Assembly (NCBI GenBank): GCA_003165855.1
Contig: PMXH01000152.1
Span: 16,463 to 28,188, forward strand
DNA from: Acidobacteriaceae bacterium
Lineage (GTDB): Bacteria; Acidobacteriota; Terriglobia; Terriglobales; Acidobacteriaceae
Direction: 5' to 3'
DNA length: 11,726 nucleotides
This document shows, in pieces, positions 1 through 9,606 of the stretch. Each line of letters starts with the position of its first letter. Positions within the stretch are counted from its first letter, which is position 1. The notes beneath the pieces were generated by a model. The model had not been told where the DNA came from and did no database searches. It saw only the letters and a list, made by a program, of their open reading frames with translations. Both the position numbers and the translations under genes were made by a program.

Positions 1-97
1 GTATTGTAGCGGCGAACGGGTTCTCATACTTCTGCACACCTTCGTCTGCAGGAACCGATGTGGATCCGGCCGCCGCTACCCGATCACTTGTATTCAT
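1..97 (-). CDS. Start of a probable encapsulin cargo protein (partial, N-terminus only)
   Basis: An open frame begins with ATG at 97, inside the last codons of the encapsulin gene, and runs off the window edge without a stop. It overlaps the encapsulin by 14 bases in a different frame, so the two are probably translationally coupled. The 32 visible residues begin MNTSDRVAAAGSTSVP and end near KYENPFAATI. They are rich in Ala, Ser, Thr and Pro with no predicted fold. Family 2A encapsulin genes are typically followed by a cysteine desulfurase carrying a long disordered N-terminal domain that directs it into the shell, and this fragment fits such a domain in position and composition. That identity is an inference: no catalytic part is in the window. 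No good Shine-Dalgarno precedes the ATG, consistent with coupling. The alternative is a chance frame or a different downstream gene. Confidence 0.5.
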   Translation of the reverse strand, partial: MNTSDRVAAAGSTSVPADEGVQKYENPFAATI

Positions 98-1007
98 GGT
101 ATTGGTCGACATTGACGTTCTCCAGCACACCGATCGCGTCCTCAGTTAGAACCGCAATCGAGCAGTAGAGCGAGATTAAATACGAAGCGATCGCCTTATG
201 GTTGATGCCCATGAAGCGGACCGAGAGGCTGGGGGACACTTCGCCCGGAAGGCCCGGCTGGAACAATCCCACCACGCCCTGCTTCTTCTCACCAGTACGC
301 AGGAGGAGGATGCTGGTTTTCTCGGCTTTTACCGCGAGCTTGTCGCAGGGGACAAGTGGAATCCCACGCCAGGTCAGGAACGGCGAACCGAACATAGTCG
401 CTGTGGGCGGAGGAACGCCACGGCGCGTGCACTCGCGACCGAAAGCGGCAATCGCCCGCGGGTGTGCAAGAAAGAAGCCGGGCTCTTTCCAAACTCTAGC
501 AACGAGTTCGTCCAAGTCGTCGGGGGTGGGGGCGCCCTTTCTGGTCTTAACGCGGAACTCAGGGGCGACGTTGTGGACCAGTCCGTACTCGGTGTTGTTG
601 ACCAGTTCATTTTCCTGGCGCTCTTTGACCTTCTCGATCATCAGGCGCAATTGCTCCCGGATCTGGTCGTGCGGACTCCGGTACAAATCGGAAATGCGGG
701 TCTGCACATCGAGAACCGTGGTTACTGCGTTGAGCGTATATTCCCGCGGCTTCTCTTCGTAGTCGACATAAATCTCTGGCAGGTCAATTTCCTCGTCGGG
801 GCTGCACTCAATGGTCCGCGTACCCGGGCGCGTAACTTTGACTTTGTTGACGCGATAGGTGCCGGCTTCAACTGGCACCCAGGACAGGAAGGTGACCAGC
901 CAGCGCGGCGTGATCACCTCCATCATAGGAACCGTTTTGGTGACGTTCGCAAGCTGGCGGGCCTGTTGCTCGCTCAGCGTATGACGGACTTCAGCTTTCT
1001 CAGGCAT
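84..1007 (-). CDS. srpI: Family 2A encapsulin shell protein (SrpI / MMP-I type)
   Basis: This 307-residue protein is a Family 2A encapsulin, an HK97-fold protein that self-assembles into an icosahedral nanocompartment. Recognised blocks shared with cyanobacterial SrpI and mycobacterial MMP-I are ARQLANVTKTVP (16-27), ITPRWL (32-37), WVPVEAGTYRVN (43-54), YVDYEEKPREYTL (80-92), ISDLYRSPHDQ (105-115), KGAPTPDDLD (157-166), FFLAHP and AAFGRE (178-192), GVVGLFQPG (244-252) and the C-terminal VDQYHEYK. Length is typical of the 2A subgroup. There is no inserted cyclic-nucleotide-binding domain, which marks Family 2B. In characterised systems the 2A shell encloses a cysteine desulfurase and stores sulfur; that role here is inferred. 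The start is supported by GAGGAG at 1015-1020, seven bases from the ATG. It overlaps the next gene downstream. Confidence 0.95.
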   Translation of the reverse strand: MPEKAEVRHTLSEQQARQLANVTKTVPMMEVITPRWLVTFLSWVPVEAGTYRVNKVKVTRPGTRTIECSPDEEIDLPEIYVDYEEKPREYTLNAVTTVLDVQTRISDLYRSPHDQIREQLRLMIEKVKERQENELVNNTEYGLVHNVAPEFRVKTRKGAPTPDDLDELVARVWKEPGFFLAHPRAIAAFGRECTRRGVPPPTATMFGSPFLTWRGIPLVPCDKLAVKAEKTSILLLRTGEKKQGVVGLFQPGLPGEVSPSLSVRFMGINHKAIASYLISLYCSIAVLTEDAIGVLENVNVDQYHEYK

Positions 1008-1020: not shown

Positions 1021-1380
1021 ACTGCGGTAAGCAATATTAGAAACCAAATGTCAGACGGTGTGGTGCATGAAATGTGCCCGGGTAGAAGACACCCGAACGA
1101 TTTTGCTTTTCGGATTTGGCATTTCCCTGGGTTGAAGTGGTCGGATGAGCCCGCACTGTGCGAGCCCATTGTTGGGGTACGGCAAGTCTCCAATAGGCGG
1201 CTGCGTCTTGTCTGTGACGCAAATCACCGTGCGAGGTAATTTAAACGCCGCTGCGGTCTTTCCCATCGTGTGGCTTCCGATTGTCTGGGAATGACTTGGA
1301 TTACCGAATCGAACCACCCCAGCGGAGAAATATCACGCACCGCGGCATGTTGTCAAGCATCTCTATTGTATTAATGGGCA
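1021..1380 (-). promoter_or_regulatory. Encapsulin upstream region with putative promoter and inverted repeats
   Basis: No convincing gene lies here. On the minus strand a perfect TTGACA (1351-1356) is followed after 18 bases by TATTTC (1327-1332), a possible sigma-70 promoter; the -10 match is only partial. It would give a leader of about 310 bases before the encapsulin. Within the leader are three short inverted repeats: TGCGTC and GACGCA with an 8-base gap (1202-1221), CGCAC-t-GTGCG (1152-1162), and CGGGT and ACCCG with a 7-base gap (1079-1095). They could be operator half-sites or RNA hairpins. I recognise no known riboswitch. A promoter closer to the gene cannot be excluded. Confidence 0.35.
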
Positions 1381-1652: not shown

Positions 1653-1934
1653 TTACGCTCCTGCCGCCTGCGCTTTATAGAACCTCTTCTTGGCACGGGA
1701 GCGGATTTCGTCAAGCTCCGCATGCAGCCTTCTGATTTCCGCGTCCAGTTCGATGAAGCTCAAGCACGGGGACGTAATCAGCTTTTCAGCAGCGACGCCT
1801 CCGTAATCCTGGCGGGTGTTCGCTTTTACGTAAACGCAGGCGGAAGGCTGCTTGGTCAATGGATCCCGGTCTAAGTACATGAGATCAAGACTTGAGGTTT
1901 CCATAATGCGGCGATTATCCCACGAGTTTTGCAT
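1653..1934 (-). CDS. Small hypothetical protein with C-terminal coiled coil
   Basis: I do not recognise this 93-residue protein. It looks like real coding sequence: balanced charged and hydrophobic residues, and a C-terminal amphipathic helix (about residues 58-88, with the heptad-like LDAEIRRLHAELDEIRSRA) likely to form a coiled coil. The middle contains YLDRDPLTKQPSACVYVKAN and a DYGGV turn. It has no signal peptide or membrane segment, so it is probably cytoplasmic. The start is uncertain. ATG at 1934 has no nearby ribosome site (a GGAGG lies about 30 bases upstream, without a start codon at the right distance); internal ATGs at 1904 or near DLMYL are possible. It stands alone on the minus strand between the arylsulfotransferase-family and encapsulin genes. 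An overlapping plus-strand frame (1578-1874) looks much less protein-like. Confidence 0.55.
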   Translation of the reverse strand: MQNSWDNRRIMETSSLDLMYLDRDPLTKQPSACVYVKANTRQDYGGVAAEKLITSPCLSFIELDAEIRRLHAELDEIRSRAKKRFYKAQAAGA

Positions 1935-2111: not shown

Positions 2112-3284
2112 TTATCTTCGATCAGGCGGCCAACGGAAACGGTAGGCTCGATACGTATCGTAGCCCTTGGGTAGAGTGGCGTCGAAGATCAGGCGGCCAT
2201 TGGCGTCAAATTCCGAGAAGCGGCCCGGCTCACCCCATCCCACGAACGTGTTGCCGTTGTCCAGCGGTTGGGCGCTGCCTTGCGAGAGCACCGAAATATG
2301 ATCGGGATGATCGAGGGAGCGGATCAGCGTGGCAGTCTTTGCCGACGGATCGAGTTTCAGCCAGATGACACGCGACCCGGGCAGGACCGGCTTGGGATTC
2401 ACTTCGTTGTCGAATATGCGCAGCGTATTGGGCCCTGCGACCACAGGGTCGTGCTGAAAAGAGAAAGCGGCTCCCGGTCCGAAGCGGAAATCGCTTTTCT
2501 TGCCTCCCAGTCGCCAGATCACTGCGCCGGTGTGGCGGTCGAGCTTGTAAACGGTTGAGGTGTGGCGTGCCGAAAGCAGCAAGGTGCCGTCGTCGTCGAG
2601 GGCGATGCCGTTGATGTGGATATAGTCCCAGGCCTTGGTCGATGAGTCTGGCAGGGGCCAATAGCTCTCGTCGAATCCAACCTTACCCAAACTGTGCCAT
2701 TCGAAGATCACTTTGCCGGTTGCGACATCGATTTCCTGAATCGATCCCTCCCATACCGGGGCGTTCTTCGATCCGCCGACCGAAGACAGGTCGGCCGTCA
2801 CGACGTCGTAGATGGTAATGAGGGCTGTGCCTTGGGGCGTGAGCAGGAAATCGTGAGCATCGGCGTTGAATCCGTTCCCAGCGCGCACGGTGGCGACGAT
2901 GTGATAGGTGTCGTCGAGGATGTAATTCACCGACGTAGCCCCGGCGAGTTTGCCAAAGTTGCTCTGCTGAGCCCAGGTCAACACCGGCTTGCCCCGATAG
3001 GACTGAACGCGGAAGTCGGCGGCGACTTGACCGTTTGTCACTTCGGAGAACCAGATGACGTGGCCACTGCTGTCCACGATTTCGGGACCTACCGGGCCCG
3101 GCTGCGGGCCCCCGCCTATGCCCGCGCCTTTGGGAGCGATAAAAATTAACCCATCGGCTTGCCCCGGACTGTTCTTGAGAACCGTGACCTCCGGCGGCTT
3201 AACGGCAGTCGCCGTCTGCGCCTCTAACGAATTAGCTGCAAGACCGAGCAGCAGGAAGATGACAGCAAACGACGGGCGTAGCAT
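2112..3284 (-). CDS. Secreted arylsulfotransferase (ASST) family protein
   Basis: This 390-residue protein belongs to the ASST family of beta-propeller proteins, which in characterised members move sulfate from one phenolic ester to another phenol. A signal peptide is visible: a hydrophobic stretch at 6-18 and a likely cleavage after LEA (residue 22), so it acts outside the cytoplasm. Family blocks in order are HDFLLTPQGTALITIYD (144-160), SIQEIDVATGKVIFEWHSL (181-199), WDYIHINGIALDDDG (219-233), LLLSARHTSTVYKLDRHTG (235-253), VIWRLGGKKSDF (255-266) and FSFQHD (274-279). The conserved His residues 144, 223, 241 and 278 are candidates for the active centre. The start is fixed by AGGAGA at 3292-3297, seven bases away. 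It is divergent from the sulfate transporter genes. The family call is strong; activity on a given substrate is unknown, since many family members are uncharacterised. Confidence 0.88.
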   Translation of the reverse strand: MLRPSFAVIFLLLGLAANSLEAQTATAVKPPEVTVLKNSPGQADGLIFIAPKGAGIGGGPQPGPVGPEIVDSSGHVIWFSEVTNGQVAADFRVQSYRGKPVLTWAQQSNFGKLAGATSVNYILDDTYHIVATVRAGNGFNADAHDFLLTPQGTALITIYDVVTADLSSVGGSKNAPVWEGSIQEIDVATGKVIFEWHSLGKVGFDESYWPLPDSSTKAWDYIHINGIALDDDGTLLLSARHTSTVYKLDRHTGAVIWRLGGKKSDFRFGPGAAFSFQHDPVVAGPNTLRIFDNEVNPKPVLPGSRVIWLKLDPSAKTATLIRSLDHPDHISVLSQGSAQPLDNGNTFVGWGEPGRFSEFDANGRLIFDATLPKGYDTYRAYRFRWPPDRR

Positions 3285-3414
3285 GAGCTAATCTCCTATG
3301 TCCAGTATTTCAATCGACTATATAGTATACTGCCGGGGTTCGGTTGGGGAGGCTGCCTGATTCTCAGGAATAAAAAAGGCCCTCTGCCCCGCGCATCGCG
3401 GAACTAACTGACTC
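3285..3414. promoter_or_regulatory. Divergent control region between ASST-family and sbp genes
   Basis: These 130 bases must hold the start signals for both divergent genes. The AT-rich centre contains two overlapping palindromes, ACTATATAGT (3317-3326) and AGTATACT (3324-3331), bracketed by CAGTA (3303-3307) and TACTG (3328-3332). They supply -10-like hexamers on both strands (TATACT on plus at 3326-3331; TATACT on minus at 3324-3329), but no good -35 box on either side, so an activator is plausible. Nearer sbp are two small hairpins: CCTGA-ttc-TCAGG (3356-3368) and CCGCG-cat-CGCGG (3389-3401), the second ending 13 bases before the ATG. The sbp start has no strong Shine-Dalgarno. Confidence 0.45.
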
Positions 3415-4455
3415 ATGCGAACTCTTTGGCTCAATGCGTTTGCTGTCACTGCGGTGGTAATAGCCGTGACGCTGGTGGTGGTCAAGAACATCGAAGGCGA
3501 CACCTCCAACCAACTGCTGAACGTCTCCTATGATCCGACCCGTGAACTGTTCCAGGATCTAAATCGGCAGTTCATCACGCAATATGCAAAGCAGACCGGA
3601 AAAAAACTGACGATCCAGCAGTCCCACGGAGGCTCGTCGCGCCAGGCGCAGGCGGTCATGGATGGCCTGCCCGCCGATGTCGTCACCCTGGCATTACGCT
3701 CCGATGTCGAAGCTCTTCACAAGCGCGGCTTGATCGCCGATGGCTGGGCCGAGCGCTTGCCGGACAGCTCCGAACCTTACACCTCGACCATTGTGTTCGT
3801 CGTCCGCAAAGGAAATCCCAGGAACATAAAAGACTGGCCTGACCTGGTTCGCCCCGGCGTTTCCGTCATCACGCCGAATCCGAAGACATCGGGAAACGGA
3901 AAACTCAGTGTGCTGGCTGCCTGGGGATCGGTGATCTACCGCGGTGGGACCGAAACGCAGGCTCTGCAATACCTCAAAGAGCTCTACCAGCACGTGCCCG
4001 TTCTCGACACCGGCGCTCGCGATGCGACCAATACCTTCACGCAAGAGAAGCTCGGAGATGTCCATCTGACCTGGGAAAACGAAGGTCTTCTCGAAACGGA
4101 GGAATACCGGGGCGATCTGGAGATTGTTTATCCGCCGGCCAGCATTCGCGCCGAGCCGAGCGTGGCCTGGGTGGATGCCAATGTCGCGCGTCGTAAGACC
4201 GAAGCCAATGCCAAGGCCTACCTGGAGTTCCTCTACACGGACCAGGCACAGGAAACCATCGCCCAGCACGGCTACCGGCCCATCAATCCCGAAGTATTGA
4301 AGAAGCACGCGAACCGGTTGCCGCAGATCGATCTCTTCCCTGTCACCATTCTTGCCAAAGATTGGGACGACGCGCAGCACAAGTTCTTCGCCGAGAACGG
4401 CATCTTTGACGCGATTCATCCAGCGCAGGCAAAACCAGGGCAGGCAAAACAATGA
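3415..4455 (+). CDS. sbp: Sulfate-binding protein (Sbp/CysP family), probably membrane-anchored
   Basis: This 346-residue protein is a sulfate/thiosulfate-binding protein of the ABC-transporter substrate-binding type. Diagnostic blocks are LLNVSYDPTRELF (34-46), SHGGSSRQAQAVMDGLPADVV (starting at 70), NPKTSGNGKLSVLAAWG (155-171), DTGARDATNTF (198-208) and DVHLTWENE (215-223), which include the oxyanion-binding loops of the family. Residues 7-23 form a hydrophobic segment, but no clear AxA signal-peptidase site precedes the mature-like LLNVSYD, so the protein may stay tethered to the membrane. An in-frame TGA just upstream makes ATG 3415 the first possible start. Its stop overlaps the start of the SulP gene (ATGA), so the two are coupled. 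The usual CysT, CysW and CysA partners are absent from the window. Confidence 0.93.
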   Translation: MRTLWLNAFAVTAVVIAVTLVVVKNIEGDTSNQLLNVSYDPTRELFQDLNRQFITQYAKQTGKKLTIQQSHGGSSRQAQAVMDGLPADVVTLALRSDVEALHKRGLIADGWAERLPDSSEPYTSTIVFVVRKGNPRNIKDWPDLVRPGVSVITPNPKTSGNGKLSVLAAWGSVIYRGGTETQALQYLKELYQHVPVLDTGARDATNTFTQEKLGDVHLTWENEGLLETEEYRGDLEIVYPPASIRAEPSVAWVDANVARRKTEANAKAYLEFLYTDQAQETIAQHGYRPINPEVLKKHANRLPQIDLFPVTILAKDWDDAQHKFFAENGIFDAIHPAQAKPGQAKQ

Positions 4456-6218
4456 AGCTCGACTACTCCTGGGGAAATGCACGCCACGATTTGCTCGCTG
4501 GCGTAACCGTTGCCGCCATTTCCCTGCCTCAAGCGATGGCATACGCCATGATCGCCGGCGTCGACCCGCGCTTTGGCCTGTATTCCGCCATCGTGGTTAC
4601 GCTCGTAGCCTCGATCTTTGGTTCATCGTCCCACTTAATCAACGGCCCAACGAACGCCATCTCCCTCGTGGTTTTCAGCGCGCTCGCTTTCTTTGATCCC
4701 GATGCCCGCTTCGATGCCTACCAGGCTATGTTCCTGTTGGGAATCATGATTGGCACCATCCAGATTCTGATCGCTGTGTTCAAACTCGGCGACCTGACGC
4801 GCTACATTTCCGAATCGATAGTGATCGGTTTCATGGCCGGAGCGGGCACCTTGGTGGGCTTAACCCAGCTCGGGAACCTGACCGGCATTCGCGACCGCGG
4901 AACTGGACAACAACATGTGCTATATCGCCTCTGGCTAACGCTCAGCGGTGGCCACGTGAATCCCCGCGCTCTCGGCATCGGATTAGGAACGATTGTCCTG
5001 GTTGTCGTGCTCAGAAAATTGGCACGCAGATATCGTCTGCCGCAGCTCGACATGCTCCTGGCCTTGATCGTTGCAGGGGTAGTAGCTTCCGCGTTCGGTT
5101 GGTCCAAGCCGGCGCTAGACGGCAAAACGGTCATATCGGTGGTCGGCAGCGTTCCCCGCAGCCTGCCCTTACCTCATGTTCCTGAAATTAAGTTTTGGTG
5201 GGTGAAGGAATTGTCAGGAAGTGCGCTGGCCATCGCTTTCCTCGGACTTCTAGAAGCATTGGCGATCGCCAAGTCCATTGCCAACACTACGCGCCAATCG
5301 CTGGATTACAACCGGCAGTGCCTGGCTGAGGGTCTGGCCAATCTTACTGGCGGATTCTTCCAATGCTTACCGGGCTCCGGCTCCCTGACCCGCTCGGCGA
5401 TCAACTTTCAGGCGGGCGCAGTGAGCCGCGTTTCCGGTGTCTTCGCAGCGGGAACGGTCGCCTTGGTAGTGGTCGCGCTCGCGCCTTTCGCCCGTTACAT
5501 TCCGAAATCCGCTCTAGCCGGGCTCCTGCTGGTCACGGCCGCAAGACTGGTCGATTGGAAGAGGCTCAGCTATGCCATGCGGGCCTCTCGCTACGACGCA
5601 GGCTTAGTCTTGGTTACCGCTCTTTCAGCAGTCTTTATCAGCGTCGAGTTCTCCATTCTGATCGGTGTGGCTTTGTCGATTCTCTTGTTCGTTCCCCGCG
5701 CCGCACTTCTGCGCTGGTCGGAACTGGTGGTCAGCAGCGAGCGCGTCGTTCGCGAGCGCTTGCCAGACGACCCGCCTTGCACCGCCATGCTGCTTTACGA
5801 TCTGGAAGGCGAACTGTTCTTTGGCGCCGCGCCAGAACTGGATCGTTGTTTCGATCAGCTGAAGCAGCGGACACGCGACGAGAAGATTCGTTTCGTGGTG
5901 TTGCGCCTCAAACGCACGCGAAATCCTGACATGGTTTCCCTGGAGCGCTTCGACCACTTTCTGCATGACATGCAGGCTCGCGACGTAACTGTATTGCTCT
6001 GCGGTGTGCGCCCGGAGTTTGCCAAGGCGATGGGGAATCTGCGCTTCCAGGACTGGCTTCCGGCTGACCGCACTTTCCCGGAAGAAGCAGAAAAGTTTTC
6101 TGCCACTCTCAAAGCCGTTCGCCATGTTTACGATCTGTTGGAGCAGAACTCCTGCGATCACTGCGGACACAATGAGTTGGTGGGCGTGGACCGGCAAGCG
6201 CTGTACTACCTGGTTTAG
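4452..6218 (+). CDS. SulP family sulfate permease with STAS domain
   Basis: This 588-residue inner-membrane protein is a SulP/SLC26-family anion transporter, most likely importing sulfate. The transport core (about 12-415) starts with DLLAGVTVAAISLPQAMAYA (13-32) and GVDPRFGLYSA (36-46), continues with GPTNAIS (65-71), and has the conserved GSGSLTRSAINFQAGA (308-323). A cytoplasmic STAS domain follows (about 440-562); the usual DxSG-like loop is replaced by RTRNPDMVSLERF, so a conventional phosphorylation serine is not obvious. The C-terminal tail has a CDHCGH cluster (568-573) and ends YYLV. The ATG lies in the sbp stop region (ATGA), so translation is coupled to the sulfate-binding protein, and the pair probably works on the same substrate. 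SulP proteins can also carry bicarbonate, but the partner favours sulfate. Confidence 0.93.
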   Translation: MKLDYSWGNARHDLLAGVTVAAISLPQAMAYAMIAGVDPRFGLYSAIVVTLVASIFGSSSHLINGPTNAISLVVFSALAFFDPDARFDAYQAMFLLGIMIGTIQILIAVFKLGDLTRYISESIVIGFMAGAGTLVGLTQLGNLTGIRDRGTGQQHVLYRLWLTLSGGHVNPRALGIGLGTIVLVVVLRKLARRYRLPQLDMLLALIVAGVVASAFGWSKPALDGKTVISVVGSVPRSLPLPHVPEIKFWWVKELSGSALAIAFLGLLEALAIAKSIANTTRQSLDYNRQCLAEGLANLTGGFFQCLPGSGSLTRSAINFQAGAVSRVSGVFAAGTVALVVVALAPFARYIPKSALAGLLLVTAARLVDWKRLSYAMRASRYDAGLVLVTALSAVFISVEFSILIGVALSILLFVPRAALLRWSELVVSSERVVRERLPDDPPCTAMLLYDLEGELFFGAAPELDRCFDQLKQRTRDEKIRFVVLRLKRTRNPDMVSLERFDHFLHDMQARDVTVLLCGVRPEFAKAMGNLRFQDWLPADRTFPEEAEKFSATLKAVRHVYDLLEQNSCDHCGHNELVGVDRQALYYLV

Positions 6219-6240
6219 TTCGTGATTTCTCTGACAATCG

Positions 6241-6252
6241 CAGCGTACGCTG
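6241..6252. repeat. 12-bp perfect palindrome after the SulP gene
   Basis: CAGCGTACGCTG reads the same on both strands and sits 22 bases after the SulP stop, followed by TTTAGGG. It could be a short terminator hairpin (4-bp stem, GTAC loop, weak T-run) or a binding site. A palindrome of this length can also arise by chance. Confidence 0.3.
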
Positions 6253-6296
6253 TTTAGGGACCGTTCGCATTCGGGCAGCAAACTTAAAGCTCAGCG

Positions 6297-8227: not shown

Positions 8228-9319
8228 GTGGCAATGCGGATACAGGACCTCGCCCGGGCGTACGAAACGAAAACAGACGAAGAACTCCTGGAGTTGGCGA
8301 CGGAGTCGGAACAGTTAACCCATGAGGCTCATTCTGCCCTAACAACCGAATTGGCAAAACGTCGGATCGACAGCGCAGAGCATTTAAGAATACAAGAGCG
8401 AAGCGACCAAGACGGCCTTGAGCGGCTAGGATCTCAAACGCATCTATCCCGGCCTGAAGCGTATGTGGTCGGCAGATTCGTAGCAGAAGTCCTCCGGGTG
8501 TACCACGACCAGTTATGGCTCTTCGTCAAACTCACTGGCCCCGCTGTAGTTGTGGGCTGCCTTGCACTCATGCTCGGCCGTAACGAGGGACGCGAGATTG
8601 CCGGGCGCCTTCCCCGTGGCGTTGCAATACTCGAACGCCGAACTGAACTTTTCGAGATTTGGCTCGCAAACACTGCCGGGTATTTTGTCAGTTGGATGGC
8701 TTCCTGTTTTTCATTTGGCGCTATTTGCTCGGCTGTGCAGGAAATTAAGAGAGGCGGCGTCCCGTCGGCTTCAGACTGTTTTGCCCAGGTTCGCGAACGG
8801 ATTGGTCCATTTGTGCGGCTTTCCCTCCTACTCTTCGTTTTGCTCCTCATAGGAGTGGCGGCGGCTGGGTTTCTGGGAACAGGCGTTTTCTGGGTTCTGC
8901 ATCAGGCTCACTATCGCTACGGCGCCCTCGGAATCTGGACCGTGACGTTTGTGTCGTTTGGGTTAATGCTGCTAGTCTTTTCGCGATTTGGACTAGCTGT
9001 CCCTGCACTTCTTCTCGACAATTGCAGTGTCTCCCAAGCAATGTTCCGCAGCGACGAGCTAACCGAAGGAAAGTGGGTTACCCTCGCCATTCTTCTGGCG
9101 AAGTCACTCATCGGGGGCTACATTGCCGGGATGCTTCCGTTTTGGCTCACCCATTGGGCTTGGCCTTATTTTCGATTGCCGTCGTGGCTTCCTGCCGTTG
9201 GCTCGATTGCCGCGGTTTCCCTAGTCGAGCCGTTCATGTTCATCGGCTTCGCGCTGTTGTACGTGAGAATGTCGGCTCCTTCCGATGCTCGCGAAGCAAT
9301 GGCGCGCCAGTTCGCGTAA
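8228..9319 (+). CDS. Hypothetical six-helix membrane protein
   Basis: I do not recognise a characterised family for this 363-residue protein. It starts with GTG 8228 or, equally likely, ATG 8234; neither has a good ribosome site. Residues 1-60 are cytosolic-looking and helical, with YETKTDEELLELATESEQL (11-29) followed by HEAHSALTTELAKRRI, a short helix-turn pattern I associate with membrane proteins of Acidobacteriota, from memory only. About six hydrophobic helices follow at 97-117, 146-168, 195-224, 232-263, 283-306 and 320-347, with no obvious catalytic motif. The overall layout resembles 'membrane-domain' proteins such as those beside glycerophosphodiesterases, but the resemblance is weak. 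It follows dctA by 50 bases on the same strand, so cotranscription is possible. Base composition seems less GC-rich than dctA. Confidence 0.8.
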   Translation: MAMRIQDLARAYETKTDEELLELATESEQLTHEAHSALTTELAKRRIDSAEHLRIQERSDQDGLERLGSQTHLSRPEAYVVGRFVAEVLRVYHDQLWLFVKLTGPAVVVGCLALMLGRNEGREIAGRLPRGVAILERRTELFEIWLANTAGYFVSWMASCFSFGAICSAVQEIKRGGVPSASDCFAQVRERIGPFVRLSLLLFVLLLIGVAAAGFLGTGVFWVLHQAHYRYGALGIWTVTFVSFGLMLLVFSRFGLAVPALLLDNCSVSQAMFRSDELTEGKWVTLAILLAKSLIGGYIAGMLPFWLTHWAWPYFRLPSWLPAVGSIAAVSLVEPFMFIGFALLYVRMSAPSDAREAMARQFA

Positions 9320-9385: not shown

Positions 9386-9606
9386 ATGACTGGAAAGATT
9401 GCTCTGGTGACCGGAGCCAACGGCGGCCTCGGAACTCACGTTACGACAGCCCTGCTGGATGCAGGTTTCACTGTCGTCGGCCTCGCCCCGCAAATCCAGT
9501 AGTCTGACTTCAACCATCCGAATTTCATTGCGCTTCCCGCGCGCTCACCGATCTGGAGACTGCCAAGAAGGCCGCGGACTGTAATGGATCTGTCCCGTTT
9601 TGGTAA
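9386..9606 (+). pseudogene. Decayed N-terminal fragment of a short-chain dehydrogenase/reductase
   Basis: ATG 9386, preceded by GGGAG at 9373-9377, opens a frame reading MTGKIALVTGANGGLGTHV, the first strand and TGxxxGxG NAD(P)-binding loop of the SDR Rossmann fold, then TTALLDAGFTVVG (second helix and strand). A TAG stops it at 9500-9502 after 38 residues. The same frame continues past the stop with SDFNHPNFIALPA, and a frameshift near 9540 leads to ALTDLETAKKAADCNG, matching the next helix of an SDR. The trace ends at TAA 9604-9606. Full SDRs are about 240-260 residues, so the catalytic YxxxK part is lost. One stop, one frameshift and the missing 3' end make this a clear pseudogene. Confidence 0.8.

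Follow-up and report, generated by a model that had tools for sequence, protein, structure and literature searches.

The closest described relative of the locus analyzed here is the SrpI/CyD system of Synechococcus elongatus PCC 7942 (6x8m), in which the gene for a Family 2A encapsulin shell is followed by that for a cysteine desulfurase. In the sections of PMC8049743 used here, the SrpI fivefold pore is lined by Gly194 and Pro196, Phe262 and Tyr273 lie near the cargo at the threefold axis, and S. elongatus knockouts of shell and cargo show no growth defect; the destination of the sulfur after the encapsulated desulfurase strips cysteine is left open there. The portion of PMC12407261 drawn on here ties desulfurases to sulfur storage and defines Family 2B by a cyclic-nucleotide-binding domain. 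Rhodaneses and serine acetyltransferases appear as accessories of 2A operons in the part of PMC8346489 considered, and the small open reading frame (ORF) described below was not found among the accessories given there. One acidobacterial encapsulin is mentioned in PMC6934571, in a passage on peroxidase cargo, and the text available from that paper names neither SrpI nor Family 2. Titles and abstract openings, which mostly do not cover subscription papers, yielded nothing on acidobacterial Family 2A encapsulins or on the small protein. Family 2A shells reportedly store elemental sulfur, according to a 2024 paper.

The window, by which we mean the whole stretch of 11,726 nucleotides that was analyzed (bases 16463 to 28188 of a 33,581-base contig), comes from a 77% complete genome in 610 contigs. 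We consider it probable, at roughly 85%, that the Family 2A shell encoded there encloses a SufS-type desulfurase, and that the sulfur this enzyme removes from cysteine is stored or handed over. The locus is a clade-specific variant, marked by repeats in the loading region of the cargo, a linked cysteine protein, and a CRP-like box at the shell promoter. It was compared with numbered loci (L), of which L005 to L018 are the close loci (n=14) and 57 loci within L022 to L083 represent other lineages, and with numbered genomes (G). Counts from the two collections are kept separate and never summed, since some of the genomes are probably identical. The features are collected in Table 1.

Table 1. 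Features at the shell end of the window and the evidence on which each rests
Feature	Position	Strand	Evidence
Cysteine desulfurase cargo gene start, first 37 codons	1..112	-	Likeness to relatives' MSxNT start
Family 2A encapsulin shell protein, 307 aa	84..1007	-	Profile, PDB and alignment matches
Possible -10 hexamer GAGACT	1185..1190	-	Class II spacing from box; weak in window
CRP-like box, GGTGATTTGCGTCACA read on minus strand, one mismatch	1213..1228	.	Pattern search
Linked small ORF, 83 codons	1653..1904	-	Homologue alignment, linkage, selection
GATAAT, possible -10 element	1914..1919	-	Printed stretch; promoter reading inferred

The sequence-only reading had proposed a Family 2A shell at this gene, to be checked by a Family 2 profile search and by comparison of a predicted structure with SrpI, and the profiles bear it out. 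The ORF is intact (307 codons), and its product matches NF041162, the family 2A shell model, across all of its positions (1 to 295 of 295; E value, 3.3e-154; 512.2 bits against a cut-off of 380). The only Pfam domain in the 307 residues is the SrpI-like PF19307, at 352.8 bits. The 2B model NF041163 is also above its cut-off (436 bits against 400), but only over positions 216 to 449 of 450, and the part before position 216, which holds the cyclic-nucleotide-binding domain, is unmatched. Judged from its sequence, the protein lacks the cyclic-nucleotide-binding insert of the E-loop, as had been claimed from the letters alone, and falls outside Family 2B; the low-confidence structural model agrees more weakly. 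A PDB sequence search gave eight matches, with five 2A-type chains first (6x8m SrpI, the best at 2.5e-135, 8t6r, 9ksl, 8wol, and 8won) and three 2B-type chains last, the 2A/2B labels for 8t6r, 9bje, 9bix, and 9bhu being taken from the fold search. By tblastn, residues 11 to 307 are 67.7% identical to S. elongatus srpI over 297 residues. The chains 8t6r (Acinetobacter baumannii) and 8wol (Mycobacterium smegmatis), compared at the protein level, are full-length matches in sequence and fold and score below SrpI. The 2B encapsulins 9bje, 9bix, and 9bhu share the HK97 core with our shell but have the cyclic-nucleotide-binding domain that it lacks.

An AlphaFold model of the shell built from 29 sequences is of low confidence (mean pLDDT of 57.4, below 50 for residues 1 to 120); its best PDB match is again SrpI, with a TM-score of about 0.5. 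Homology to solved shells points to an HK97 fold, and the low-confidence model matches the same shells. With an alignment offset of three, the SrpI pore and threefold-axis residues are kept as G197, P199, F265, and Y276, of which G197, F265, and Y276 are invariant in the 29 shell sequences and P199 is found in at least 90%. The shell is a clear and ordinary member of Family 2A and, taken alone, adds one more member to a known kind. The guess that an automatic annotation would be uninformative is outdated, as NCBIfam and Pfam models now name the protein. Absent from the earlier account were the strand, the fact that the cargo gene begins within the window, the small ORF linked to the shell, and the promoter box.

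The gene next to the shell is that of the cargo. Its frame opens at an ATG at position 112, with an alternative ATG at 97, and overlaps the last 29 nt of the shell gene; in S. elongatus, by contrast, the two genes do not overlap. The frame runs to the first bases of the window, where the assembly has a two-N scaffold gap, and beyond the gap lies a cysteine desulfurase frame (L002:14108-16459). This piece matches the 2A cargo model NF041166 at 839.7 bits (cut-off, 800) and a SufS model as well, and through it the sulfur link proposed from the sequence alone holds. The motifs SGHK and GHHCAQP, which are those of the cofactor lysine and the active cysteine, are present. About 390 residues precede the catalytic part and form a long, unannotated N-terminal region. 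The desulfurase of the relatives is one uninterrupted gene, and the order shell then cargo was found, by desulfurase matches, in at least 73 of 80 loci; 5 of the 62 loci in L022 to L083 had no desulfurase match. The cargo of L006 and P0002 are the same protein, giving one NF041166 match. The S. elongatus locus differs in its surroundings, with cysteine synthase and serine acetyltransferase genes preceding and a rhodanese gene following. Where NCBIfam names the ORFs after our cargo gene, they are sugar-metabolism-like or have no relation to sulfur.

If it behaves as SrpI does, the shell protein would form T=1 shells, each about 25 nm across and built of sixty copies. The SufS-type desulfurase encoded by the overlapping gene would be held inside by its long disordered N-terminal region, cysteine would enter through the fivefold pore, and inside the shell the enzyme would strip its sulfur, to be stored or handed over in a controlled way. 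In this acidobacterial clade of soil bacteria, the loading region has gained repeated FSFPGVP-type motifs, and a CRP-family protein may control the shell promoter through the CRP-like box.

The loading region is where the close relatives depart most visibly from other lineages. Counted from the preceding stop codon, the N-terminal region of the cargo has a median of 435 residues in the 14 close loci versus 250 in the 57 others. The motif LANEFF occurs once in each of the 14 close loci and in 49 of the 57; it is not visible in our cargo because the assembly gap falls at that place. A strict FSFP[G/A/R]xP-type pattern was present in 13 of 14 close loci, L012 being the exception, with a mean of 2.5 copies, versus none of the 57 (shuffled control, mean of 0.003 copies). 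These counts leave out L004, whose cut cargo has three copies, and the five loci in L022 to L083 without a cargo match. The more distant acidobacterial loci L019 to L021 have one or two copies, and a looser pattern was met once in each of 7 of the 57 other-lineage loci and more often in none. Our own cargo has four copies of the FSFPGVP-type motif in its disordered loading region. At least two copies were also found in 119 of 120 cargo proteins (consensus, EMFSFPGVPG; median spacing, 85 residues), a set that is biased toward repeats because the N-terminal query itself had them, so that the loci found by their shell provide the fair comparison. The N-terminal region of S. elongatus CyD matches neither the repeat nor the LANEFF pattern. 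The repeats may bind the shell; if they do, they would be a natural multivalent loading tag, useful for cargo engineering.

The second clade-specific feature lies 221 nt before the shell ATG. The pattern TGTGAN6TCACA, allowing up to one mismatch, occurs upstream of the shell in 13 of 16 stretches (the window and L004 to L018) versus 2 of 69 other loci, loci with a minus-strand shell match or fewer than 200 bases upstream being left out. Across all 85 stretches, 15 boxes were observed versus 0.6 in simulated sequence; L005 and L014 have none at two mismatches or fewer. A perfect TATACT begins 31 or 32 bases from the box center in 10 of the 16 (10 of the 15 relatives, the window not being among them), which would place the box near -42, the position of class II activation. 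In the window, the corresponding GAGACT has two mismatches to TATACT. Our genome contains 26 perfect boxes versus 3 for a reversed control, and for this reason a CRP-type regulon is likely. One paper, by its title, places the S. elongatus plasmid genes under the control of sulfur and CysR. CysR belongs to the CRP family.

The third feature is the small ORF upstream of the box. Its frame extends over positions 1653 to 1934 (93 residues, with cysteines at 33 and 57), and the alignment with most relatives begins at the ATG at 1904, for a product of 83 residues. A GATAAT nine bases before this ATG may be the -10 element of a leaderless transcript. Upstream of the small ORF, CRP-like boxes were not found as a rule; among the copies listed, one (L124) has a box with one mismatch. 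Cysteine 57 is invariant in 121 of 121 aligned sequences, and the second cysteine is kept in 118. The ORF is under purifying selection, with dN/dS of 0.09 to 0.21 in five of nine pairs and silent sites saturated in the other four. Of the 15 loci L004 to L018, 14 have a relative upstream of their shell; the exception, L013, shows only about 650 bases there. In 397 genomes of the order, the small ORF was found in 17 (29 copies, two with an internal stop) and the shell in 60, 58 of these scoring above the cut-off. Every carrier of the small ORF also has the shell, and none of the 337 genomes without a shell has the small ORF. In 16 of the 17, one to three copies lie upstream of the shell, sharing its contig and strand; in the remaining genome (G251) the two are on different contigs, and the shell is cut by the contig start. 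The shell of G246 was matched as two overlapping pieces that both score below the cut-off. Hypergeometric values for the co-occurrence are 1e-15 over the order and 1.5e-8 within our genus, and both overstate independence because the genomes are related. The small ORF was found in 3 and the shell in 15 of 150 genomes sampled from the family, the 3 falling within the 15, and among 396 genomes of the phylum it was found in 2, both already counted.

We regard the product as a candidate accessory of the compartment, and two readings of it have to be weighed. The first, plausible to us though somewhat short of even odds, is that the ORF is a lineage-specific passenger, inherited with the shell locus, whose function is unrelated to the compartment. 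Thirteen of the 17 carriers belong to one genus and the carriers are related, so the linkage does not amount to 17 independent events. The CRP-like box lies between the two genes, which therefore need not share a transcript. There are also decayed copies, one with an in-frame stop (L008:3739-3984) and one with ATT in place of the start (L015:5878-6126), each at a locus with further copies. On the other side, all 13 carriers in our genus fall among the 14 shell-bearing members of its 34 listed genomes, and at loci whose other neighbors vary, the ORF keeps its place next to the shell.

The second reading, a doubtful one, makes the product a sulfur (persulfide) acceptor or a redox partner of the encapsulated desulfurase. 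Its invariant cysteine directly precedes a predicted helix (residues 58 to 92), a common setting for reactive thiols, and relatives have a metallo-beta-lactamase/rhodanese protein or a cysteine synthase at the same locus. The model behind the helix, however, is of middling confidence (pLDDT of 65.3, pTM of 0.40), and no known sulfur carrier was matched by profile, PDB sequence, or fold: there was no Pfam or NCBIfam match at E values up to 10, the best PDB profile match had an E value of 0.17, and the fold search gave none better than 5.9. In addition, no copy was detected in 43 of the 60 shell-bearing genomes, so the product is not needed by the system generally. That the protein is a new dedicated Family 2A component, a sulfur acceptor or release factor, and that the repeats let one desulfurase chain hold several shell sites, we likewise consider improbable as a combined proposal. 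The small invariant-cysteine protein is a testable candidate for a missing partner. Last, a phage or provirus capsid identity for the shell protein has shared HK97 ancestry and some phage capsids far down the fold search (E values of 0.2 and worse) in its favor, but it is contradicted by the profile scores and the desulfurase cargo gene next door, by the fact that all seven fold matches of the low-confidence model at E values up to 0.001 are Family 2 encapsulins, and by Pfam and NCBIfam searches in which no phage gene was recognized among those window proteins that were compared, and we dismiss it.

Around the shell and desulfurase genes of the relatives, further neighbors recur. Of the 14 loci in L004 to L018 that carry the small ORF, 10 have upstream of it at least one of two proteins, an FAD/NAD(P)-binding one and a metallo-beta-lactamase/rhodanese one; L004, L006, L011, and L014 are without them, and L006 shows fewer than 400 bases. 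Neighbors of the rhodanese type are expected, since rhodaneses and serine acetyltransferases are known 2A operon accessories. In L018 (positions 3399 to 6287) the two proteins form one 962-residue frame; in L009 they are two genes. In our own genome, contig C259 carries a relative of the rhodanese protein (69% identity) and C253 a relative, in two pieces, of the FAD protein; neither gene has a perfect CRP-like box around it. Five loci have a cysteine synthase gene downstream, namely L008 (on the opposite strand), L009, L010, L013 (cut), and L016, and several contigs end before the place where it would be.

Upstream of the small ORF, positions 2112 to 3284 on the minus strand encode a 390-aa arylsulfotransferase-like protein. 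At positions 3415 to 6218, the genes for a sulfate-binding protein and a SulP sulfate permease share four bases, and no ABC transporter genes lie beside them. In L026 the same pair is immediately upstream of the shell, and relatives of the sulfate-binding protein occur in the fetched stretches of 16 of the 80 loci L004 to L083, all outside the close clade. The arylsulfotransferase, sulfate-binding protein, and SulP were considered as conserved partners and are taken as context only, since none had a tblastn match in L004 to L018.

A search of the window with Rfam gave a tRNA and two sub-threshold matches only. One of the latter, at positions 972 to 1026 on the minus strand (20 bits against 38), overlaps the beginning of the shell gene and was regarded as a chance match. 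In seven relatives, the region upstream of the shell matched no RNA family at the gathering score. The stretch from 1350 to 1650 has a folding z score of -2.3, and non-coding positions 1401 to 1482 contain a hairpin (CCTGCCGA / TCGGCAGG) that is about 75% alike in L014 and L018, with no Rfam family in the window or in those two loci. A 363-aa ORF at positions 8228 to 9319 has no Pfam or NCBIfam match. At positions 9386 to 9502, a 38-residue frame containing VTGANGGLG, presumably the start of a short-chain dehydrogenase, runs into a stop and is likely a gene remnant.
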